In this document: positions 4,904 through 18,447 of the stretch, piece by piece
Numbering within the stretch: position 1 is the first letter of the stretch
Layout of the letters: the number at the start of each line of letters is the position of its first letter
Position numbers and translations under genes: made by a program
Origin: a virus
DNA length: 20,332 nt
Strand: one strand, 5' to 3'
Virus record (IMG/VR): IMGVR_UViG_3300009152_000269
Span: 1 to 20,332 of that record
The notes under the pieces: generated by a model
The model's database searches: none
The model's input: the letters and a program-made list of their open reading frames with translations, nothing else
Told to the model about the DNA's origin: nothing

Positions 4904-5248
4904 ATGGAAGAACAAATTCCCGCCAGTCAAGTTCCCCAACAATTGCAAGGGATTTCCCCTGAGCAGCTAGCGGAGATGAAAGCCCGTGCCAGAGAACAGG
5001 CAATTCGCATGACTATGCAACAACAAACGCCTCCACCACAATCTCCTCAAGCCCCCGTCGCGCTCCCTGGTGGTTACGTTTACATGCCCGAAGCCCCGGA
5101 ACCTCAGATTGTCTATGTACGCCGCAACCTAACCGTTGCTGAAATTTTGGTTATTGCTGTAGTTTCTTGCCTTGTTGTTGGCGGTATCCAAGGTATTTGG
5201 GGATTTGCCTCCAAACATCTTCCGCAAATTGAAGTAAGGGTTAAGTGA
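4904..5248 (+). CDS. Small single-pass membrane protein with a Pro/Gln-rich N-terminus
   Basis: This 114-residue protein has a helical Gln-rich N-terminal half (SPEQLAEMKARAREQAIRMT), a Pro/Gln spacer (about 40-70), and one strong hydrophobic segment at about residues 77-100 (ILVIAVVSCLVVGGIQGI). A short basic-amphipathic tail (KHLPQIEVRVK) follows. There is no signal-peptidase or lipobox motif. It begins the rightward late-type unit, 52 bp before the first tail fibre, divergent from the HTH gene. Its shape fits a single-pass holin-like or spanin-like lysis protein, or a membrane-anchored host-modifying protein. No family is recognised, so lysis is only a possibility. Confidence 0.65.
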   Translation: MEEQIPASQVPQQLQGISPEQLAEMKARAREQAIRMTMQQQTPPPQSPQAPVALPGGYVYMPEAPEPQIVYVRRNLTVAEILVIAVVSCLVVGGIQGIWGFASKHLPQIEVRVK

Positions 5249-5300: not shown

Positions 5301-7247
5301 GTGGCCAACAGACGCATATCTGAGCTTCAGGAACTTGCAGGTCTTGACCTAGCGGATCAGGACCTGCTCACAGTTGTGCATGTTTTTGAGGTTGACCCAA
5401 CACTAAAAAATAGAAAGCTAACCGTATCAGGAACAAAAGAATATCTTAATGTTTACTATTTGCCGCGCACTGGTGGCACCGTTAGCGGAGCACTGGTTGT
5501 TCAAGGTAACCTAACGGTTTCCGGCAGTACAAATTTTGCAACAGCTACTTTTACGGGTGCCGTTACCGTCGGTTCTCTTGTTGTTCAAAGTGGAATAGTC
5601 GCTAGTGGCACAATTAGTGGTGCAACAATTACCGGGGACAACATTCAAGGCACTAATGTTAACGGTGTCTTGGGCAATTTTACAACAATTACCGGCGGTG
5701 TAATTACTGTTAACTCAGGCAATTTTCTTACTAAGGTCAGCGGCGTAACCATTACTGGTGCATCAGGCGCATTTACTTCGTTAACTGGTCAAACTATTAC
5801 CGGTACTACGGTAAACGTTGCATCAATCACTGGTGATGCAGCTAAATTTACAGCAGTTACTGGTGATACTGCAGGATTCACTACGGTTACTGGTGTTACC
5901 GTAACGGGTACTACAGCCAATTTTGCATCTGGCGTATTCACCACACAAATTTCCGGAGCGGCAATTACTGGTGGTACTGCTGGATTCACTTCGATTACCG
6001 GCGTTACCGTAACAGGTACTACGGCCAACTTTGCATCTGGCGTATATACCACTTTGTTATCAGGTGCGACAGTCACTGGTGCATCTGGTGGATTTGCCAC
6101 CCTTATTTCTACTACCGTAACCTTTACCAGTCTTAGCGGCACCACGGTCACTCTTGTCAGTCTTACCGGTACTTCTGGCGTATTCACATCTTTAGTATCA
6201 GGTGCTACTGTTACTGGCACCTCTGGGGGATTTGGTACCCTCACTGCTACCACTGGTAACTTTACTTCACTTACGGGCGTCACAATCAGTGGTACAACCG
6301 TTTCAGCAGCCACTGGTATTTTTTCAAGTATTACATTTACCAGTACAACTGTTTCTGGAAACCTTACTGTTAATGGCTCTGGCTTCTTTGGTTCTGGCGT
6401 AAGTGTTACGGGAACAATCAGCGGCGTAACAATTACTGGGACCTCGGGTCAATTTACCTCAATCACTGGTGGGTCCGCTGGTTTTACTAGTGTTACTGGC
6501 GTAATTGTTACAGGCACAACAGCCAACTTTGCATCAGGCGTATTTACTACGCAAATTTCTGGTACCGCAATCACCGGTGATGCAGCAGGTTTTACTAGCG
6601 TTACTGGTGTTACGGTTACCGGTACAACTGCTAATTTTACGTCTGGCGTATTCACTACGCGGATTTCTGGTGTAACAATTACAGGCACAACAGTTACCGC
6701 AACCACTGGCAATTACACTTCTTTAACAGGCGTTACGACCACTGGCACCACTGCAAACTTTGTCACATTTAATGGCGCTTCTGGTGTATTTACTACACTG
6801 GTTTCAGGCGCTACTATTACTGGCCAAGCTGGTCAATTTTCAGACATTACTGGCGTTAGGGCTGGTTTTGGTACGGTCACGGGCGCTACGGTTACCGGCA
6901 CTACGGCTAATTTTGTATCAGGTGTATTCACTACTCAGCTTTCTGGCGCCACAATTACTGGGACAACCGTTAATGCAACTACTGGTAACTTTGGGACACT
7001 AACGGGGACCACTGCTACTGGTACTACCGCCAATTTTGTAACACACAATGGAGCGTCCGGTGTTTTTACAACTCAAGTATCTGGTGCAATTGTTACCGGA
7101 AACACGGGTTTGTTTACAAACATTACTGGTTCCACAATTACAATTACCACGCCTTCTGGCGCAACTCCGGCCATTGTCTGTTCTGGCGTAGTGTCTGGTA
7201 GCACCAGTGGGTTTGTGATTAAAGGACCCTTGATCATTCTTCCGTAA
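5301..7247 (+). CDS. Repetitive tail-fibre protein (Thr/Gly/Val beta-repeat shaft)
   Basis: This 648-residue virion protein starts at GTG 5301. Its N-terminal ~55 residues (RRISELQELAGLDLADQDLL, then PTLKNRKLTVSGTKEYLN) form a compact non-repeated domain of the kind that attaches cyanophage fibres to the particle. From about residue 65 onward it is almost entirely low-complexity repeats such as TGVTVTGTTANF-SGVFTTQISG, alternating roughly 15 and 21 residues; these would form a long trimeric beta-helical shaft. It ends in a short non-repeated strand region (VICSGVVSGSTSGFVI in part, then GPLIILP) with no obvious receptor-binding or chaperone domain. The next gene shares the repeat type and adds a chaperone, so the two may be proximal and distal halves of one fibre. 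Confidence 0.85.
   Translation: MANRRISELQELAGLDLADQDLLTVVHVFEVDPTLKNRKLTVSGTKEYLNVYYLPRTGGTVSGALVVQGNLTVSGSTNFATATFTGAVTVGSLVVQSGIVASGTISGATITGDNIQGTNVNGVLGNFTTITGGVITVNSGNFLTKVSGVTITGASGAFTSLTGQTITGTTVNVASITGDAAKFTAVTGDTAGFTTVTGVTVTGTTANFASGVFTTQISGAAITGGTAGFTSITGVTVTGTTANFASGVYTTLLSGATVTGASGGFATLISTTVTFTSLSGTTVTLVSLTGTSGVFTSLVSGATVTGTSGGFGTLTATTGNFTSLTGVTISGTTVSAATGIFSSITFTSTTVSGNLTVNGSGFFGSGVSVTGTISGVTITGTSGQFTSITGGSAGFTSVTGVIVTGTTANFASGVFTTQISGTAITGDAAGFTSVTGVTVTGTTANFTSGVFTTRISGVTITGTTVTATTGNYTSLTGVTTTGTTANFVTFNGASGVFTTLVSGATITGQAGQFSDITGVRAGFGTVTGATVTGTTANFVSGVFTTQLSGATITGTTVNATTGNFGTLTGTTATGTTANFVTHNGASGVFTTQVSGAIVTGNTGLFTNITGSTITITTPSGATPAIVCSGVVSGSTSGFVIKGPLIILP
5500..7190 (+). repeat. 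Degenerate coding tandem repeats of the fibre shaft
   Basis: Variants of actggtgttaccgtaacggg, ttttgcatctggcgtattca and related blocks recur throughout with drifted third codon positions, encoding ~36-residue units. Some copies are nearly identical at DNA level (for example 5885-5960 with 5995-6055, and 6500-6560 with 6600-6665), which would favour recombination and change of shaft length. The repeats also create long open frames on the opposite strand, which are not genes. Confidence 0.75.
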
Positions 7248-7302: not shown

Positions 7303-9438
7303 ATGCCTTATGGAACGATCAAGGTTGATAACATTACCTTTGATAATGGTGGTACAGACAAATTAATTACTGTTTCTGGTTTATTTTTTTCAACGTCAGG
7401 TGCTCTTACCGTTACCGGGACAATCTCTGGTGGTAACGTAACCGCTCCTACTGCTACTTTCACAACTCTTACGGGCATCACAACTGCCGGTACTACTGTT
7501 ACCTTTACGTCTGGCTCTTTTACTTCACTTACAGGTGTAACTACCACTGGCACTACTGCAACATTTACGTCTGGCTCTTTTACTTCACTCACTGGCGTAA
7601 CTACTACCGTTACCTCGGGTGTTTTTGGTTTAGGTTCTGCTGCCGCACCAAGTATTGCATTTAGCGGAGACACTAACAATGGCATCTATAGTCCTGGTGC
7701 AGACCAAGTAGCCATCTCAACTAATGGCACGCAGCGACTAGCAGTTGATACCGCAGCAACTACTTCAACCCTGCCTGTAGTTCATCCCCTTGGAGCAGTC
7801 GGCACCCCGTCGATTACCTTCACTGGCGACCTGAACACTGGCATTTACAGCCCCGCAGCCGACACGCTTGCCTTTGTTGAAGGTGGAGCAGAGGCCATGC
7901 GCCTGGACTCCAGTGGCCGCTTAGGTCTGGGGACCAGCAGCCCTGATAGCAAGTTAAATGTTGTAGACGCTTCTGGAAATTCTTTACGAATTGGATTTGG
8001 CAGCAACTTTAATATTTACGATGCAGCAACACATGCATTTAGAAATAATGGCGGCACAAGTGACTACATGCGCATCGACAGCTCAGGCCGTGTAGGCATA
8101 GGAACTAGCAGCCCAAGTCAACCACTTCAGGTTGTGGGCGCTATTGCGTCAACAGCTATTGCATCTTCATTAACTGCCGCTTCGGCTTTTATTGATTACA
8201 ACACTAGCTTTAACGGCATCCGTGTTGGCTCGGTCGGCAACACAACAGGCACAGCAGGACCAATTTACTTTTCTCAGTATTCATCTAATGCTTCCGTCGG
8301 GCGCGATGCAGTTATTATCGACTCCTCAGGCCGATTAGGGATTGGCACTACTGGGCCTAGCAGTTTGCTTCATCTTGTCTCAAGTGGACAGCCCACAATT
8401 ACAGTGGCAGATGATGCTGGCCGGTCTTTACAGGTTAAAGCTCCTGATAGCAGTGCCAACCCTGGCTTTATTGGCACTACAACAAATCATGATTTTTTGC
8501 TCCAAGCTGGAACTACCGCAGGTGGCTTAAATGTTATGCGGTTTAATACCGCTGGTTCTGAACGCGCCCGCATCGACAGCTCCGGCAGGCTCTTAGTTGG
8601 CACGTCTAGCAACGACAGCAATGCAAAATTAGTTTGCCAAGGATTTGTTGGTGGAGAAGCAAGTACCGGTGCTTTTGCAGTGAGATATGGATCTACAAGG
8701 CCAACTGCGGCCGACATTGGAATAGGTACTGTTCGGTTTGAATCGACAAGTAATACTAACTTGAATTATCACTATGCTTCGATTTCTTGCGCGACTGATG
8801 GCGCCAGCAGCTCTGATACTGACATCCCAGGCCGCCTAGTGTTCTCCACTACGGCAGATGGCGCGAGCAGCCCGACTGAGCGGATGAGGATTGGAAATGC
8901 TGGTAATGTGGGAATTGGGCAAGCGGATACAGCAGGGGCAAGACTTGCGGCTACTTCAACCGGAACAGCGTATGCCGGTTATTTTACTTTTCCAAATACT
9001 GCACAAGGCATAGGCATTGCCAGTACCGGAGCGGGAACTGTTGCTGCTGCATATTTTTTCAATAATGGAACAAACGTGGGATCAATCAATATGACATCCT
9101 CCGCAACTTCCTATGCAACTTCTTCCGACTATCGCCTCAAAGAAAACGTAGTTCAAATTCCTGACGGCATCACCCGCCTCCTTCAACTGAAGCCAAGCCG
9201 CTTCAACTTCATCGTTGACCCCGACCACACGGTTGACGGCTTCATCGCACACGAGGCACAGGCCGTAGTTCCTGAGTGCGTCACCGGAGAAAAAGATGCT
9301 GTGGATGAAGACGGCAACCCCGTCTACCAAGGCATCGACCAATCCAAGCTAGTGCCCCTGCTGACGGCTGCGTTGAAGGAAGCCATCGCCAAGATCGAAG
9401 CCTTGGAGACACGGCTATCTGCTCTGGAAGGCAAGTAG
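7303..9438 (+). CDS. Tail-fibre protein with C-terminal S74 intramolecular chaperone
   Basis: This 711-residue protein starts with ~100 residues of the same TGVTTTGTTATF repeats as its neighbour. Two GDxNxGIYSPxAD blocks and four copies of the DSSGRLGIGTSSP type follow, all common in phage fibre tips. The C-terminal ~105 residues are an S74 domain: SDYRLKEN places the self-cleaving Ser608 and Lys613 dyad (S-x4-K, as in the K1F endosialidase), followed by FIAHEAQ and a terminal coiled coil (ALKEAIAKIEALETRLSALE). The domain trimerises the fibre and is then cut off. G+C rises from about 43% (8461-8520) to about 57% (9181-9240) at this domain, suggesting a recombined module. This is probably the host-recognition fibre. 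Confidence 0.9.
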   Translation: MPYGTIKVDNITFDNGGTDKLITVSGLFFSTSGALTVTGTISGGNVTAPTATFTTLTGITTAGTTVTFTSGSFTSLTGVTTTGTTATFTSGSFTSLTGVTTTVTSGVFGLGSAAAPSIAFSGDTNNGIYSPGADQVAISTNGTQRLAVDTAATTSTLPVVHPLGAVGTPSITFTGDLNTGIYSPAADTLAFVEGGAEAMRLDSSGRLGLGTSSPDSKLNVVDASGNSLRIGFGSNFNIYDAATHAFRNNGGTSDYMRIDSSGRVGIGTSSPSQPLQVVGAIASTAIASSLTAASAFIDYNTSFNGIRVGSVGNTTGTAGPIYFSQYSSNASVGRDAVIIDSSGRLGIGTTGPSSLLHLVSSGQPTITVADDAGRSLQVKAPDSSANPGFIGTTTNHDFLLQAGTTAGGLNVMRFNTAGSERARIDSSGRLLVGTSSNDSNAKLVCQGFVGGEASTGAFAVRYGSTRPTAADIGIGTVRFESTSNTNLNYHYASISCATDGASSSDTDIPGRLVFSTTADGASSPTERMRIGNAGNVGIGQADTAGARLAATSTGTAYAGYFTFPNTAQGIGIASTGAGTVAAAYFFNNGTNVGSINMTSSATSYATSSDYRLKENVVQIPDGITRLLQLKPSRFNFIVDPDHTVDGFIAHEAQAVVPECVTGEKDAVDEDGNPVYQGIDQSKLVPLLTAALKEAIAKIEALETRLSALEGK

Positions 9439-9628: not shown

Positions 9629-10483
9629 ATGCCTACGACCCTGGAAGAACTATGGAACGCTTTTGTAGAAGAGCGTTCCATTTCTTTGTGTCCAACAAGT
9701 TTGACTTCTGATTACAGGCAGACTGGAAATTGGTTGGCACGTTGCCCTATCCAAGATTTTCAAGAAGCCAAAAAAATAATGATGTGGGTTTTAAAAGAAA
9801 AGCCCATACCATCTTCTAGACGTGTTGCAATGTACCTTAAAACAATGTACAAATGGGCAGCCCAAGAAGACGTTGGACACATGAACCGAAATCCCTTGGC
9901 AAGTTTTAAAATGCCTAAGGCTCCACAAAAAGATGACGACATTATTGTGATCCCTAGAAACGAGGTGGAAATAGTACTTCAAGCCCTGGCGCAAAAAAGA
10001 ACATATCGAAGTGTTAATTGGTCTTTGTATACAGAGTTTATGTTACAAACAGCCATGAGAACTGGCGAAGTGCGTGCACTTGAATGGAAAGATATCAAAG
10101 AAAATAAGATATTGGTGCATCAAAATTACACATTAACTCACGGGCTTAAAGACAGTACTAAAACCAACAAAAAACGTTGGGTACCACTTAACGGTAAGTG
10201 CCAAGAGATACTAGAAAAACTTCCAAAAGAAAATCAGTTTATTTTCCCCTGGGACCGCGTTGCGTTTCAAAGTTATTTTCGCAAAAAATTACAACCTGTG
10301 CATCAAAAAGGATTGATTTCACATTTGTATCGTCCATATGATTGCAGGCATACCGCTATTAGTTATTGGATTGAATCTGGAATTCCGGTGCCGCAGGTAG
10401 CAGCTTGGGCTGGCAATACTAGCGAAATTATTTTTAAACATTACTGCAACACAACAAAAGAATACGAAATGCCTGAATTGTAA
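9629..10483 (+). CDS. int: Tyrosine recombinase (phage integrase)
   Basis: This 284-residue protein catalyses site-specific strand exchange through a Tyr-DNA intermediate. An N-terminal SAM-like core-binding domain (about 1-100, including AMYLKTMYKWAAQ) precedes the catalytic domain. Arg144 lies in TAMRTGEVRALEW, a Lys in the STKTNKKRWVPL hairpin, and Arg240-His241 in YDCRHTAISYW, where Tyr replaces the usual first His. Asn263 (AGNTSEI) stands where His or Trp is common, and Tyr272 in FKHYC is the nucleophile. Residue identities are within the range seen for active phage integrases. It lies downstream of tail genes and upstream of the C39-like peptidase. No tRNA or obvious attP core was seen nearby. 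Confidence 0.9.
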   Translation: MPTTLEELWNAFVEERSISLCPTSLTSDYRQTGNWLARCPIQDFQEAKKIMMWVLKEKPIPSSRRVAMYLKTMYKWAAQEDVGHMNRNPLASFKMPKAPQKDDDIIVIPRNEVEIVLQALAQKRTYRSVNWSLYTEFMLQTAMRTGEVRALEWKDIKENKILVHQNYTLTHGLKDSTKTNKKRWVPLNGKCQEILEKLPKENQFIFPWDRVAFQSYFRKKLQPVHQKGLISHLYRPYDCRHTAISYWIESGIPVPQVAAWAGNTSEIIFKHYCNTTKEYEMPEL

Positions 10484-12781: not shown

Positions 12782-13459
12782 CTAACCCTCGTCGTAATCA
12801 GGTGGTTCTTTGGCGTACAGCGGATTTGTAATAGCTCTTTTAAATGATTGCTCAACAATTTTTTCAGGTTGCTGGTTTAGTACGCTTTGACGATTAAACA
12901 GCATTAATTTTTCTGCTTTGAATTCAATTTCAAGCGGAGTAACGGTTTGCGGTGGAGAGGGCGCAACATTAAGGCTAGATGCCATGTGCAATGGGTTTCC
13001 ACATTTTGGATTGCCACACATCCTGGTAACCAGCAAAGAACCTACGTCCCCCCAAGCGCATTGATATAACGCTTTGTGGATGTTGACGTTTTCAGATTTT
13101 TGTTTACTGTAATCAGACCTATACGATGGTATGCAGATTCTTTTGGGTGTACGTTTAGTAGCGCCTTGAATTTCCCAACAGTCCTGGGGCAGGCCGATAT
13201 CAATTTGGTGCCAGAGGCTGGCGTACCTTACCTTATACGCTTTGTGAAGATAGTTTACGTCAAAGCCGCAAACGTTGGAAGCAATTTTTCTGGCGCAATG
13301 GTAACACCAATGCTGTTCAATATCCCTAATGGTGTGACCATGGGGGCACGGATAGCCGTGATAGTAGCCCTCATTCTCAAGTTGAGACTCATTGAGGTTG
13401 TCAATAAGACTAACAAAACGAAAGATCTGAAACTGAGAGTCTTGGTACAGGTTTGCCAT
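12782..13459 (-). CDS. HNH-type endonuclease with N-terminal zinc-binding motif
   Basis: ATG 13459 is chosen because it lies 5 nt after the stop of the preceding HNH gene, behind the purine-rich aggaaggt; longer in-frame starts overlap that gene. The 225-residue product has Cys38-x3-His42 with Cys52-x2-Cys55 near the N-terminus, then DCWEIQG (93-99), typical of phage HNH proteins. VTRMCGNPKCGNPLHM (144-159) is the Cys-rich HNH core (compare V-x-H-x-C-D-N-x-x-C-x-N-P-x-H-L). Arg146 stands where the first His is usual, so activity may be reduced. Such enzymes act as homing nucleases or in genome processing. It ends 43 bp from the PPC-like gene. Confidence 0.7.
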   Translation of the reverse strand: MANLYQDSQFQIFRFVSLIDNLNESQLENEGYYHGYPCPHGHTIRDIEQHWCYHCARKIASNVCGFDVNYLHKAYKVRYASLWHQIDIGLPQDCWEIQGATKRTPKRICIPSYRSDYSKQKSENVNIHKALYQCAWGDVGSLLVTRMCGNPKCGNPLHMASSLNVAPSPPQTVTPLEIEFKAEKLMLFNRQSVLNQQPEKIVEQSFKRAITNPLYAKEPPDYDEG

Positions 13460-13464
13460 GACAA

Positions 13465-13821
13465 CTAGCTTACCTTCCTGGAGCCACGGGTGTTTTCGAC
13501 CAACTCTTTGCGGTTGTCCCGGCAAGGGTTGCTTGCCAGGTGCAGGATCTCCTTGGGGGTGTCCCTGCCTGTCCGCATGTAGTAGACGATCCTATGGGCC
13601 ACGTACTTGCCCCCCAGGAGCCTGACGACGTAGTAGGGGTTGGGTGTGGAGAGTACGCCAGCTTGCCTCCCCTCCTCCCGCCAACGGTCACTGACGGCCC
13701 ACTCCAGGCCCGAGGGGTAGGCGTCCGATAACCGAACAATTTTCTGTAGGTCCTCCAGGGGTGGAAGGGTTTTTACCGGGGCTGGCATGGGGAAATGAGT
13801 GGTGTCATAGGACTCTAGCAT
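13465..13821 (-). CDS. Small HNH-like protein of foreign base composition
   Basis: This 118-residue protein matches the N-terminal part of cyanophage HNH proteins: PSGLEWAVSDRW (36-47), then YYVVRLLGGKYVAHRIVYYM with His76, and ILHLASNPCRDNRKEL (92-107) in place of D-H-x-D-x-x-x-x-N-N-x-x-x-N-L. His94 and Asn103 are kept but the preceding Asp is lost. G+C is about 62% in sampled lines (13561-13620, 13681-13740), against about 37% at 13381-13440 in the next gene, a strong sign of separate origin. It begins only 2 bp from the first GACTTTAGGG repeat, so the palindromic region forms its leader. It could be a homing endonuclease or a decaying remnant. Confidence 0.6.
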   Translation of the reverse strand: MLESYDTTHFPMPAPVKTLPPLEDLQKIVRLSDAYPSGLEWAVSDRWREEGRQAGVLSTPNPYYVVRLLGGKYVAHRIVYYMRTGRDTPKEILHLASNPCRDNRKELVENTRGSRKVS

Positions 13822-13823
13822 CA

Positions 13824-14071
13824 GACTTTAGGGCTTATGTGCAGAGTTTGATGCGGATCTTCGGACTTTAGGGGTCATTTCAAAAACTTTCCCTAAGGAA
13901 ATTACAAGAAAATTCCAAGTTGTCATTATTGTTACAGAGTGTTAACCTTCTTATATTCGTTACAAAACGCCACAACCATTACAACTTTGATTTTTTTTGT
14001 AATTTGCTTAGGGAGAGTTTTCAGGGCGACCCCTAAAGTCCGCAAAGTCCCAAGAGTCCCTCCCTAAAGTC
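13824..14071. repeat. Large imperfect palindrome with four GACTTTAGGG repeats (candidate origin or control region)
   Basis: This gene-free region holds nested inverted repeats centred near 13952. cggactttaggggtc (13862-13876) is perfectly mirrored at 14028-14042. 13889-13912 is mirrored by 13992-14015 with about 21 of 24 matches, and aagttgt (13918-13924) is mirrored at 13981-13987. These keep register without gaps, so the two ~90-bp arms are one structure. GACTTTAGGG occurs at 13824-13833 and 13864-13873 on the plus strand, and at 14031-14040 and 14062-14071 on the minus strand, all pointing inward. The centre is AT-rich with TTACA repeated at 13902, 13932, 13960 and 13979. A replication origin with iterons, an operator array for the HNH gene, or a remnant element are all possible. 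Confidence 0.7.
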
Positions 14072-14096
14072 CGCAGAGTCGGTCAATTCCTGACAC

Positions 14097-14122
14097 AAAA
14101 AAGCCCCCACTTCCGTGGAGGC
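14097..14122 (-). terminator. Intrinsic terminator of the glycosyltransferase transcript
   Basis: Read on the minus strand, gcctccac, loop ggaa, gtgggggc form an 8-bp GC-rich stem with one T-G wobble (14103-14122), followed directly by six T residues (14097-14102). It lies 27 bp beyond the glycosyltransferase stop and should end the leftward transcript before it enters the palindrome. Confidence 0.85.
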
Positions 14123-14148
14123 CCATTCGTTTTCTCAATAAATGACCG

Positions 14149-15411
14149 TTATTGCCTTTCCGAGTAAACCGATCGCTTAACCGGCCTACCCTTCTTCTTC
14201 TTCTTAGGTTGCGTCTCAGTAGTCTCGACCACAGGATTTAACACCTCCTGGAACACCTCGTCAAACTGGTGCGCGATCGTATCCCAGCCAAAGCGTTCCT
14301 CCGTGGCTCGCAGGTAACAGAGCTCAGCAGTAGCCGCCAACTTCTCCCGGTCCTCGTACAGCTCCGTCAGGATGGCTGCCAGGTGGTCACTGGAGGGGCA
14401 GGGCATCTCCCTTGAGTAGTTGGTGTCCACATCAACGTGGTCGCAGCGGATGAGGCGTCCATAGCCCTCAAAGATCTCCTTGCATGACGTATGGTTCGGC
14501 ACCACCTGCGCCACTCGACAGGCTGCATGCTCATGGGAGACCAGCCCCCAACCCTCTCCTTTACAAGTGTTTACACCAACGTCAACAGCGTTATAAATCG
14601 TATTTAAAAACTCCACCTCCACATTGGGCGGCCCCTGCGTCTGCGCCGTAAGGATGATACGACCATTGGGATCAATCCCCTCCCTCTGCATTGCCCTGGC
14701 AAACAAAGGCATGACGTCCCAACCCTGGTCCTTCAATCCCATGTGGAGATATAGTTGAGTGTCCGGCTTGTCTTTTGCAAATTTTGCAAATCCCTCAACC
14801 GTAATATCAATGCGCTTGCGGAACTGATTCCTGTTCCCATTGAACACAATAAAAATATCGTCCTTCAAACTGAGCCGTTTACGCGCCTCTGCTTTATCCA
14901 TGGGATAAAACTGATTTGCCGTAATACCGTGGGGGATGATCGTAATTGGTTTACGGATGCCGCCCCTAATAAATTCGTGCGCACCAAATTCCGTATACGA
15001 GATGACTCCATCCCAATCGTTGGCGGTCTCGTCAAGGCACCCCGTCCAGCCATACGAATCCATGGGGGCATACCCCACAAACTTAAATAGTTTCTGGTCG
15101 TGCAGATCTTTAATGCGCTTGTACTGCTCATTAATAATCCACATGTCATTGATAGTAAACACAATGTCTGGCTTCTCTTTCTCCACTACTTCCCTAATGC
15201 GATCCTCCCCAAAGGGCGCCGTCTGAAAACGATTAGACGACGGATACATCTTGTACTTACTCTGAAGTGGCGTCGGGTCCCCCCACCAGTTGTGAGAGAG
15301 TACCACAATCTCATACTGCTCCTGGAGACGGCTCAATACATTTTCTGTAACGCGAGCAAATCCCGTCATGGCAACAATGTCACCACACCACAAAAGCTTA
15401 GGTTTAGCCAT
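14149..15411 (-). CDS. GT4-type glycosyltransferase with AT-hook-like C-terminal tail
   Basis: This 420-residue GT-B fold enzyme transfers a sugar from a nucleotide donor. NGNRNQFRKR (191-200) is the phosphate-binding region, and KGEGWGLVSHEHAA (284-297) holds the E-x7-E pair Glu286/Glu294. DMWIINEQ and YAPMDSYGW near residues 89-122 belong to the acceptor-side domain. The last 20 residues (QPKKKKKGRPVKRS) are strongly basic with a K-G-R-P core like an AT-hook, odd for a carbohydrate enzyme. The acceptor is unknown: host lipopolysaccharide, a virion protein, or modified DNA bases are all possible. It follows SpeD by 23 bp and ends in a clear terminator. The 3' third is richer in G+C than the 5' part. 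Confidence 0.85.
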   Translation of the reverse strand: MAKPKLLWCGDIVAMTGFARVTENVLSRLQEQYEIVVLSHNWWGDPTPLQSKYKMYPSSNRFQTAPFGEDRIREVVEKEKPDIVFTINDMWIINEQYKRIKDLHDQKLFKFVGYAPMDSYGWTGCLDETANDWDGVISYTEFGAHEFIRGGIRKPITIIPHGITANQFYPMDKAEARKRLSLKDDIFIVFNGNRNQFRKRIDITVEGFAKFAKDKPDTQLYLHMGLKDQGWDVMPLFARAMQREGIDPNGRIILTAQTQGPPNVEVEFLNTIYNAVDVGVNTCKGEGWGLVSHEHAACRVAQVVPNHTSCKEIFEGYGRLIRCDHVDVDTNYSREMPCPSSDHLAAILTELYEDREKLAATAELCYLRATEERFGWDTIAHQFDEVFQEVLNPVVETTETQPKKKKKGRPVKRSVYSERQ

Positions 15412-15434: not shown

Positions 15435-15794
15435 CTATAGCCTATTGGACAATGTTGTGGATCTGCATAACTCTCTTTCGTCCGCAGTTTCCGCCTTAAG
15501 TTTTACTTTTAAAAACTCAGCAGCCTTATGAGTAAGCGTAGTATCACCACAGGTATACAAATCAATCGCTGCATAACCTAATTGAGGCCAGGTGTGAATG
15601 CTGGCATGGGATTCCGAGAGTAATGCCAACAATGTAACCCCTTGTGGTTCAAATTTATGGCCACAAATTCGCAGGATGTTTGCCTTGGCAAGCACCAATG
15701 CAATCTCTAGAAAACGCTGAAGCTCACCGTAGTCATCCAAGATTTCTGGACTGCACCCGTACAGGTCCAGGATCAAGTGCCGCCCATTACCCAT
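15435..15794 (-). CDS. speD: S-adenosylmethionine decarboxylase proenzyme
   Basis: This enzyme makes decarboxylated SAM, the aminopropyl donor for spermidine. The 119-residue protein matches the small prokaryotic class: GRHLILDLYGC at the N-terminus, FEPQGVTLLALL, then SESHASIHTWPQ with the self-cleavage site between Glu61 and Ser62, which becomes the pyruvoyl group. His67 and Cys82 (YTCGD) match the proton-donor residues. All key residues are present, so activity is expected. Its ATG lies 8 bp inside the end of the primase-helicase gene, so it is made with the replication protein. speD is a known auxiliary metabolic gene of cyanophages; no spermidine synthase is in this window, so the host would complete the pathway. 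Confidence 0.93.
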   Translation of the reverse strand: MGNGRHLILDLYGCSPEILDDYGELQRFLEIALVLAKANILRICGHKFEPQGVTLLALLSESHASIHTWPQLGYAAIDLYTCGDTTLTHKAAEFLKVKLKAETADERELCRSTTLSNRL

Positions 15795-18447
15795 CAGTCT
15801 CTATTTCATATTCATTTTCTATTCTGACATCAGATTCCGCACTGTAATCAATACCGTAAAATTCTTTGTACTTCTGGCGATCTGACGAAATCTCTACTAC
15901 GCTCGGCCACCCCTCATACTTAGGGCTGGACTCCCGCACTGCAACATTAATGATACGTACGCCCCTAGTAGTGCGCTTACTGAATACCTTCAAATCCAAC
16001 TGATGGGTCAAGATATCCATCAACAAAACTTCAAAGCGACTACGAGACATGACCCCCGTATTGCACTGCCTACTGAACTCTGCATAACTTGCGTACAACC
16101 ACTTGTCTTGATTGTCATAAATATTGGATGAACCCATCGGCGCATTCTTAGTAAACCCAATTGCACTAGCAACACCCGGATCATAAATTACCTTGTGCTC
16201 CAGCCAATCAAGCAGCGGGTTAGACCGCAGGTTTTGCAACTTTTCATATTTCTTAAAAAACTCCACCCGCTTGGAGGTTTCCATTAGATAACTCCGCATT
16301 TCTTCTTCCGTCATATCCAACAACCAGTTCACCAACCCTGGCAGCAACGGGGCAAAGTCTCCCTCAGGTTCACCCTTTTGGTTGAACTTAATCAATTCCC
16401 TTTGTTCATTAGGCCCGCCCGTGAACGGTCGGTCAAATGGAATGGTAAGACGACGACGTGCCAAGCCCGATGTATAGTCTGTCGATTGAATAGCTTCGTT
16501 TGCCGTAATGATTACGACACCTTTAAATTGGAAAGGCTCTTGATTCTCATTCTGATACTTACGTTCCGATCGAATCCAGTCACTGCCGGTAATCGCCTTC
16601 AACCTAGAAACCGATCCGCCCCACCGATCAGCATCCTGGAACAGCAAGAGTTTTTTACCCATGTAGCCCGCCGCCTCAAACCGGTTTTTCTCCAGGTTCT
16701 CGAAGTCAGTTGAGTACACATTCTTCCTACCCACCAGTGCTACAGCCAAGTTTGCGTAAGTTGATTTTCCAGACTTACCTGGTCCCACAATCTCAACAAA
16801 CTTCTGCATTTCATAGCGGCCAAGCAGTGTTGCCCGCAACCAGGCCCTCAATACTTGGGTGCGATTCCAACTATCACGCTGCACATACTTCAACCACCTA
16901 ATAATTTCCTCACAAGAAGCAGCAGAGTCATATGTGTACGGCTGTTGTTGTGTCAGATAAAGCTCCCTACTAAAAGGAAGCAACTCCCTAGTTTCAATAT
17001 CCAACACCCCATTAGTAAACAATAGGTAGCGGCTACCCTCATACCACTCCTTAAAGTAAAGTGCCGATTGAAGCTGATCGTTTACATCGTTGATTAATTT
17101 GGTATTAAACCCCTCAATAATTCCGCCTTTATCTCGCACTTGTAGCAGTTTGCTACGAATATCCCCAGCCATCTCAACCTTGCTCATGGGGGACCAAAGC
17201 CCTTGCCCTTCTCTTTCGTACATAAAAAACTGATTGTGCTTCAAGCTAAACACTAAATTTCCTTCATACATCTGCATTACCACATCTGACACAACATCAG
17301 CAGAAGCGTTGCGCCCACTTTCTTTTTTCTCTGCCTCAGCTTTATTTAATGGAGGCCTGCCCCGCTTTCGTTCCGTTTTTGGTTCTGTCTTTTTTACTTC
17401 TGCTGCCTTGGCTGTTTGCACAGCTAAAATTGTTTCCATCTCTTGTGTGTCCGTGTCAGTAGGAAGTTTTGCCAATTGATCAAGCGTCTGGTCGTCAACG
17501 CTTTTTACTTTGTGATCTTCAGGGGGAGACCAACCATTCTCTTTAGCGATGTAAAACAATGAGCCAATGCCCCGTCCACCACCTTTACTAAAGGAGAGCC
17601 AACGCTTGTGGCATTCACCATCTCTATACTTGTCACTTTGCTTGGACCACTCATCCCACTCTTCAAGCAACGACTCATCTAATGAATGCAACGTCTGACC
17701 AATTGTGATCCAGATGTCATAATCATCTGCTGCTTCTGCGGGCAAGGCATGCATTGCTTCAATTGCAAGCTGCATATCCCTCTCCAAAGAAATCTCAGCC
17801 TGCACTGCAAACCCTGGACCAACCATCCTGGTTACTTCCCTGGCAGGCACACCTTGCTTTACATTTTTTGTAATGATCTCATTCAACAAACACTCCGGAA
17901 ATTCCGGAAGGTTCATCGCCCACTCATAACCCAACCCATCAGGCGTAAAGTATCCATCCGTTTCCGGATGCAAACCCATCAACACACCTTGGTGCCGCGA
18001 CCATAGAATCTCTAACTTTTCGCCCTTCGTCTCAGCAGTCCATGTATATTTGTTGCGAACAAAGTGCAACTGCTTATCGCGTGCAATTTTATACAGACGC
18101 CGTTCCCTGCCAGCTTTACCACTACAAATGGTTAGCGTCCTTGGTAGGGCATCTGCAAAACTTTTGTTTGTAATTTTTTCAATGAGGGGGTATACACTTG
18201 GGCCATCCACGTCCACCCACACCAAACCATAAGGCAAGTTGAAGACAGGGCCACCAATGAGTCCAATGGCTTTGCATTGACCACCAGCAATCTCTTCTTC
18301 AATTTCCCGAAGACTAAAAGGTTTATTTTGCCAGCCATCAACATAAGGATTTTTGTTGCCGCCCAGTGGGGTCAGCGGCCAATCTAAAGGAATGTAACCA
18401 AGATTAATTTCACCTGGCCGAAGGGCCTGTCCAATTTCGCTGCTCAT
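15787..18447 (-). CDS. Primase-polymerase/D5-type SF3 helicase
   Basis: This 886-residue replication protein begins with a prim-pol domain: WPLTPLGGNKNPYVDGWQNK (23-42), then Asp79/Asp81 in LVWVDVDG. A PriCT-2-like helical region follows (about 220-305, including DDYDIWITIGQTLHSL). A charged linker holds KRGRPPLNK (361-369), a classical AT-hook core. The D5 N-terminal domain (TNGVLDIETREL) leads into the SF3 ATPase: Walker A GPGKSGKST (555-563), Walker B KKLLLFQDAD (598-607), motif C VVIITANE (644-651) and Arg finger GLARRRL (661-667). The C-terminus looks like a winged helix. It should prime and unwind DNA at the origin. It overlaps speD by 8 bp and the upstream small gene by 4 bp (ATGA). 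Confidence 0.92.
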   Translation of the reverse strand: MSSEIGQALRPGEINLGYIPLDWPLTPLGGNKNPYVDGWQNKPFSLREIEEEIAGGQCKAIGLIGGPVFNLPYGLVWVDVDGPSVYPLIEKITNKSFADALPRTLTICSGKAGRERRLYKIARDKQLHFVRNKYTWTAETKGEKLEILWSRHQGVLMGLHPETDGYFTPDGLGYEWAMNLPEFPECLLNEIITKNVKQGVPAREVTRMVGPGFAVQAEISLERDMQLAIEAMHALPAEAADDYDIWITIGQTLHSLDESLLEEWDEWSKQSDKYRDGECHKRWLSFSKGGGRGIGSLFYIAKENGWSPPEDHKVKSVDDQTLDQLAKLPTDTDTQEMETILAVQTAKAAEVKKTEPKTERKRGRPPLNKAEAEKKESGRNASADVVSDVVMQMYEGNLVFSLKHNQFFMYEREGQGLWSPMSKVEMAGDIRSKLLQVRDKGGIIEGFNTKLINDVNDQLQSALYFKEWYEGSRYLLFTNGVLDIETRELLPFSRELYLTQQQPYTYDSAASCEEIIRWLKYVQRDSWNRTQVLRAWLRATLLGRYEMQKFVEIVGPGKSGKSTYANLAVALVGRKNVYSTDFENLEKNRFEAAGYMGKKLLLFQDADRWGGSVSRLKAITGSDWIRSERKYQNENQEPFQFKGVVIITANEAIQSTDYTSGLARRRLTIPFDRPFTGGPNEQRELIKFNQKGEPEGDFAPLLPGLVNWLLDMTEEEMRSYLMETSKRVEFFKKYEKLQNLRSNPLLDWLEHKVIYDPGVASAIGFTKNAPMGSSNIYDNQDKWLYASYAEFSRQCNTGVMSRSRFEVLLMDILTHQLDLKVFSKRTTRGVRIINVAVRESSPKYEGWPSVVEISSDRQKYKEFYGIDYSAESDVRIENEYEIETDG

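Follow-up and report, generated by a model that had tools for sequence, protein, structure and literature searches.

A conserved palindrome 3′ of a primase-helicase gene as the probable replication origin of S-EIV1-type cyanophages

We propose that an imperfect palindrome of 181 bp in a viral genome record is a replication origin of S-EIV1-type cyanophages, of the kind proven in the plasmid pRN1 and proposed for the phage BPP-1, and that it carries inverted tandem iterons. Judged from sequence and by analogy with other replicons, this reading has a probability of about 70%. It draws on the conserved position and pairing of the palindrome, the architecture of the nearby primase-helicase (Rep), the anatomy shared with pRN1 and BPP-1, the palindromes that our scanner found at other rep genes, the 9-bp words in their arms, and the iterons of the SaPI and P4 origins. 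The palindrome offers a specific origin candidate for the S-EIV1 lineage, whose origin is unannotated.

Results

The window analyzed here spans an entire IMG/VR record (20,332 bases). A preliminary description, made from the letters alone, had noted a 181-bp gap-free palindrome at 13862 to 14042. Both a repeat finder and BLAST self-alignment recovered this palindrome, to which no strand is assigned. The repeat finder returned ungapped arms of 71 nt (13862 to 13932 and 13972 to 14042, with the center near 13952) that are 80% complementary and 39 nt apart, and the 181 nt matched their own reverse complement at 71% over the full length by BLAST. The perfect 15-bp outer arms (13862 to 13876 and 14028 to 14042) were confirmed by direct reading. 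The remark that differences between the arms are often transitions also held, with 9 of the 14 mismatches in the window being of the transition type. The middle of the palindrome is A+T-rich, and its center is imperfect. Folding against shuffled controls, as proposed in the preliminary description, placed the palindrome far beyond shuffled sequences on both strands and as DNA: the RNA fold of the + strand reached −87.6 kcal/mol (z = −10.6), the z scores were −8.6 for the − strand and −8.7 for single-stranded DNA, and no shuffle matched the stability of the palindrome in any of these folds. A DNA similarity search in phage records and an Rfam search with the palindrome gave no match. A 14-mer from an arm, compared with viral contigs, gave mostly chance matches besides true relatives. 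The single promoter-like match lies on the + strand inside the loop and is near chance level. We rejected a miniature inverted-repeat transposon: no end duplication was seen by eye, BLAST found one copy in the window record, and the palindrome occupies the same locus in relatives.

The palindrome lies between an HNH-type gene and a terminator, as initially described, in a gap (13822 to 14148) with no open reading frame of at least 50 amino acids. The neighboring genes are on the − strand: rep (15787 to 18447), the S-adenosylmethionine decarboxylase gene speD directly 3′ of it (15435 to 15794), a glycosyltransferase gene (14149 to 15411), and, on the far side of the palindrome, HNH118 (13465 to 13821; 118 amino acids) and p247 (12782 to 13459). 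The decarboxylase gene behind the primase gene is retained in most relatives. The intrinsic terminator of the glycosyltransferase/primase operon (14101 to 14124, − strand) separates the operon from the palindrome, such that the order onward from the glycosyltransferase gene is terminator, palindrome, HNH-type genes. The palindrome follows rep at a distance of ~1.75 kb, across two intervening genes.

Rep, the proposed initiator, has the Pfam domains Prim-Pol, PriCT_2, D5_N, and DUF5906 (SF3 helicase). Its AF2 model has a predicted C-terminal winged helix (helices at residues 784 to 794 and 802 to 816; strands at 822 to 826 and 829 to 837) and, in Foldseek comparisons, was closest to AsfvPrimPol and the SaPI5 primase-helicase. 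No HUH/relaxase-type nicking domain was detected in Rep or in the other window proteins scanned; hence, we rejected a rolling-circle double-strand origin, although HNH proteins are present. Nor was there a protelomerase match among the window proteins scanned. p247 has a zinc-binding HNH/His-Me-type fold that weakly resembles I-PpoI, and alignment of its family revealed a C-x4-C-x4-H zinc motif as in I-PpoI. We take the catalytic His of I-PpoI to lie two residues before the first Cys of this motif. The aligned p247 members have Arg or Lys at that position, so p247 may bind DNA without cutting it.

We gathered relatives via the primase-helicase, via the glycosyltransferase, and via a Rep profile, and scored palindromes in register with both strands treated alike. 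In the first set of relatives, the best palindrome of most loci was in the same gap. The preliminary description had suggested a search of related cyanophages for the palindrome at the same locus, and this search was successful: 62 of 81 Rep relatives have an ungapped palindrome with a score of at least 15 located 3′ of Rep and 5′ of p247; double changes at paired arm positions in nine relatives are described below. The remaining 19 have no strong ungapped palindrome between Rep and p247; clades of this kind include L244 to L252 except L249, L183/L184, L253, L254, and L226. The fold z score was below −3 for 58 of 81 Rep-p247 regions, compared to 2 of 81 control stretches inside rep. The syntenic palindrome is kept across lineages with Rep identity down to 54%, and it is the strongest palindrome genome-wide in five whole ~80-kb relatives (G012, G002, G005, G008, and G003). 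The genome-wide scan found no palindrome above threshold in G006, G007, or S-EIV1, and the sole palindrome above threshold in G004 is located elsewhere. The records of G012 (L004) and G002 (L032), ~81 to 85 kb in length, look complete because they have 127-bp identical ends; the primase of G012 is 94% identical to that of the window. Three phage Rep genes (L257, L259, and L260) came from Gammaproteobacteria, unnamed-bacterium, and Heimdallarchaeota MAG bins, probably through misbinning of phage DNA. An inverted repeat of ~0.5 kb in L260, close to perfect, is likely an assembly artifact.

The distance from Rep to the palindrome is 1.7 to 3.4 kb in most loci, with p247 closer than Rep. Within the S-EIV1-type lineage, the palindrome is never apart from p247, which always comes after it. 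Five loci (L181, L185, L189, L190, and L240) have the glycosyltransferase gene relocated to a position behind p247; the order of its neighbors is unchanged, and the palindrome has stayed, directly after Rep-speD. HNH118 is missing from many loci, several of them palindrome bearing, and L207 has its palindrome between HNH118 and p247. From these arrangements, we concluded that the palindrome is independent of the glycosyltransferase gene and HNH118 and is constant relative to Rep and p247. A partial Mantel test indicated that palindrome similarity tracks Rep only slightly, and not decisively, better than p247 (partial r of 0.25 versus 0.165). The preliminary description had also named cumulative GC skew as a check; in nine relatives, the skew had no global turn at the palindrome and merely a local step past the primase operon.

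Across nine relatives, double changes occurred in 31 of 45 pairs (79 double-change cells), compared to 5 to 12 pairs (6 to 17 cells) in slid controls, and none of 500 shuffles reached the observed values. Many of the double changes are full swaps, e.g., C-G to G-C. We concluded from these sequence comparisons that the structure is retained while the arm sequences diverge. Quasi-palindrome correction by template switching can also produce double changes. Because pairing is kept through double changes, the earlier suggestion of a remnant inverted duplication is not supported; for a partition site, another of the earlier suggestions, we found nothing.

We used arm mismatches to compare the two strands, with G-T read as wobble on the coding strand and A-C as wobble on the other. 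In the first set of 47 palindromes, the two were balanced (178 G-T versus 193 A-C). A second set, of 68 palindromes found by the symmetric scan, gave a mild imbalance (209 versus 278), to which we attach little weight because, as estimated from counts, it is partly explained by arm composition (G+C of 0.412 in the left arm versus 0.373 in the right). In the window, L019, and L020, the core enclosed by the outer arms has, as a unit, the opposite orientation to that in L021 and L005. Frequent flipping of the core was considered and rejected, since only a single inversion event was seen, accounting for 3 of 44 pairs, each of them spanning the two clades closest to the window. The simplest view of an element that works after inversion of its core is a DNA site with twofold symmetry. 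The lack of a consistent G-U excess, together with inversion of the whole core in close relatives, points to a DNA element rather than an RNA. These observations, with the negative Rfam search, argue against the structured RNA leader that had initially been considered; a structured RNA family was likewise rejected, there being no Rfam model match and no consistent one-strand tolerance of G-U.

Four copies of the decamer GACTTTAGGG are present in the window, each lying at the palindrome or its flanks (at 13824 and 13864 on the + strand and at 14031 and 14062 on the − strand), in inverted arrangement. With its neighboring word, it makes up a tandem 9-bp pair, GACTTTGCG-GACTTTAGG. This pair is read on the − strand at 14032 to 14049, partly within the outer arm, and a second tandem pair, GACTCTGCG-GACTTTAGG, lies outside the palindrome at 14063 to 14080 (− strand). 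On the + strand, inverted copies of GACTTTAGG are found in the opposite outer arm (13864 to 13872) and outside the palindrome (13824 to 13832). Relatives carry different words at comparable positions: L090/L078 have seven copies of a CCCGCTATAC-type word, L040 has four copies of TTCATTCCG with spacings of 61, 33, and 61, and L067 has TGCAGACTT twice in tandem. For 65 S-EIV1-type palindromes, the excess of self-matches was modest and confined to lags of ~8 to 11, and a period-9 test gave a genuine though modest excess at lags 9 to 11, with clear tandem pairs in only about ten lineages. Short-word repeats in the origin region are a feature of the iteron origins of P4 and SaPIs, and the palindrome region has such repeats. 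GTCTCA..TGAGAC was rejected as a special origin motif, since single GTCTCA words are scattered throughout the genomes.

The Sulfolobus plasmid pRN1 requires, in vivo, a 100-bp stem-loop 3′ of a rep gene of this kind; the terminator between rep and the stem-loop is dispensable, and the stem-loop still works when moved (Berkner et al. 2014, PMC4234260). The same anatomy has been pointed out as a putative origin in phages BIP-1/BPP-1, whose Rep has PriCT_2 (PMC4234260). As a positive control, the top palindrome that our scanner found in pRN1 was the proven origin stem-loop (5084 to 5183). The top palindrome genome-wide in BPP-1 was at 26607 to 26710, 3′ of rep, and top-ranked palindromes were located 8 to 62 nt behind rep in Acinetobacter phage 4316, BcepC6B, Javan465, AcaML1, and NatCom_3870. 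Among 19 phages with related Reps (loci of ±4.5 to 6 kb), 8 had their top palindrome no more than 500 nt 3′ of rep, compared to 0.86 expected; these 8 include Armstrong and Eileen, whose palindromes are inside a coding gene, and BPP-1, which was known beforehand, and the positives that remain without these three are still well above expectation. No strong ungapped palindrome was found 3′ of rep in the distant-Rep phages R9Y2, Sasha, Flyfo, UFOVP1367, Kurt, Teagster, and Elezi. Reading the sequences, we found five palindromes whose arms carry direct 9-bp words, two or three in number: GCCTCGTTT in BPP-1, AGTGACGTT in Acinetobacter phage 4316, GGGACGATA in BcepC6B, CTGACGGGT in AcaML1, and GGCACAGAT in Urkel. 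The pRN1 arm has a weaker 9-bp pair, TGTCCATAG-TGTCCAACT.

The window resembles pRN1 in having a stem-loop 3′ of a Prim-Pol/SF3 helicase/winged-helix rep with a terminator between, and in the low conservation of sequence and high conservation of structure. The pRN1 stem-loop is movable, and in S-EIV1 relatives the palindrome-Rep distance varies freely. The pRN1 stem-loop is ~100 bp long, lies 54 bp behind rep, and has been described as lacking iterons, whereas the window palindrome is longer, more elaborate, and farther from rep and has iterons in its arms and flanks (in relatives, also in the loop). BPP-1 likewise has a Rep with Prim-Pol, PriCT_2, SF3 helicase, and winged helix (domains given for BPP-1/BIP-1 in PMC4234260), its top palindrome 3′ of rep, and tandem 9-bp words; in contrast to the window, its palindrome is shorter (104 bp), has terminase-block neighbors, and carries another iteron sequence. 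An annotated small endonuclease gene adjoins it. These features of the pRN1/BPP-1 type are present in the window: the Rep domains (by Pfam, the winged helix of the AF2 model, and Foldseek), a large dominant stem-loop 3′ of rep, albeit at a greater distance, and structure conserved over diverging sequence. SaPI origins, directly downstream of rep, consist of iterons bound by the Rep C terminus (PMC7581432). The P4 crr lies 3′ of the α gene after a terminator and has type-1 repeats in both orientations. As proposed here for the window, SaPI and P4 iterons are recognized by the C-terminal domain of the helicase initiator; unlike in the window, no large palindrome has been described for them, and P4 differs further in the Toprim-type primase of α and in its separate ori.

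Discussion

A replication origin was one of the options in the preliminary description. The comparisons uphold it, in that the palindrome is syntenic, covarying, dominant, and pRN1-like; the expected global turn in GC skew was absent, and skew did not help to decide. In the mechanism we envisage, Rep would use its C-terminal winged helix to bind the ~9-bp iterons GACTTTAGG/GACTTTGCG. The inverted orientation of the iterons in the arms and flanks would make two Rep assemblies load in opposition. Strand opening may be aided by the A+T-rich middle and by the palindrome itself, perhaps extruded into a cruciform when the DNA is supercoiled; the SF3 helicase would then unwind the DNA and Prim-Pol would prime both strands, giving a bidirectional start.

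The main rival to a replication origin is a DNA site of the HNH-type proteins p247 and HNH118, either an operator or a site bound or nicked in recombination or nick-start replication. We consider it unlikely, yet it has to be taken seriously because p247 is as constant a neighbor as Rep: p247 comes after the palindrome, in most cases immediately, and does so also in loci with a displaced glycosyltransferase gene or without HNH118. Its zinc/HNH-type fold and the endonuclease gene adjoining the BPP-1 palindrome also speak for such a site. However, our phage collection has no p247 relatives outside S-EIV1, whereas pRN1 and unrelated phages have similar palindromes 3′ of their rep genes. The L207 palindrome separates HNH118 from p247, the catalytic-His position of I-PpoI is Arg or Lys in p247, and operators are seldom 180 to 390 bp long.

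Other explanations appear much less probable. Long palindromes serve as hairpin telomeres (protelomerase), packaging sites, or dimer-resolution sites, and hairpin transfer or arm recombination would yield core inversion; nevertheless, a DNA-processing site of this sort is very unlikely, given that the palindrome is internal in the two relatives that are complete or circular, with 127-bp repeats at their ends, that its center is imperfect, that the window proteins scanned gave no protelomerase match, and that terL of S-EIV1 is >30 kb away. Slightly less probable still is a structured RNA, acting as an HNH-gene leader or a phage noncoding RNA in the form of one long hairpin. The very stable fold on both strands, the location downstream of a terminator and upstream of a gene, and the mild excess of A-C over G-T (278:209), equivalent to wobble on the antisense strand, are in its favor; these are countered by the unbiased first set (178:193) and the partly compositional origin of the later bias, by the inverted core and the lack of an Rfam match, and by the sole promoter-like match being on the + strand, in the loop, and near chance level. 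We give least credence to a palindrome with no function, its symmetry kept only through template-switch correction. That process makes double changes and core inversions, both of which we observed, but it does not account for a single syntenic site across lineages that in most cases is the one long palindrome in the genome, or for iterons in and around the arms.

With replication origin as the preferred reading, we tentatively suggest a broader generalization, about which we are more doubtful than confident: inverted tandem ~9-bp iterons within a palindrome may serve as a shared origin code for initiators of the Prim-Pol/SF3-helicase type, in replicons ranging from pRN1 to many tailed phages. 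Such a code would unite "stem-loop" and "iteron" origins, with two Rep complexes head to head, and in S-EIV1-type phages the iteron word would change between lineages with the Rep winged helix. The motifs that the pRN1-type initiator recognizes at the stem-loop were "not yet identified" in 2014 (PMC4234260), and the iterons are candidate binding sites for that question. Natural variants of the palindrome are numerous, and one has its core inverted; together they offer a set on which binding and replication could be studied.

The named phage nearest to the window is Synechococcus phage S-EIV1 (KJ410740), which has the same order of primase, glycosyltransferase, and p247 genes. An inverted repeat at 7843 to 7955 in the same gap differs from the window palindrome in having indels and another iteron and is unannotated in KJ410740. 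The S-EIV1 lineage of cyanophages has been reported to be widespread in freshwater. The window has a tyrosine integrase gene (9629 to 10483, + strand), and an 89-kb S-EIV1-like prophage has been reported in Synechococcus elongatus UTEX 3055 (PMC9239245); hence, the lineage may be temperate. The window also has a 648-amino-acid open reading frame (5301 to 7247, + strand) made of near-identical short repeats of the GVTVTGTTANFASGVFTT type, which is tail-fiber-like.
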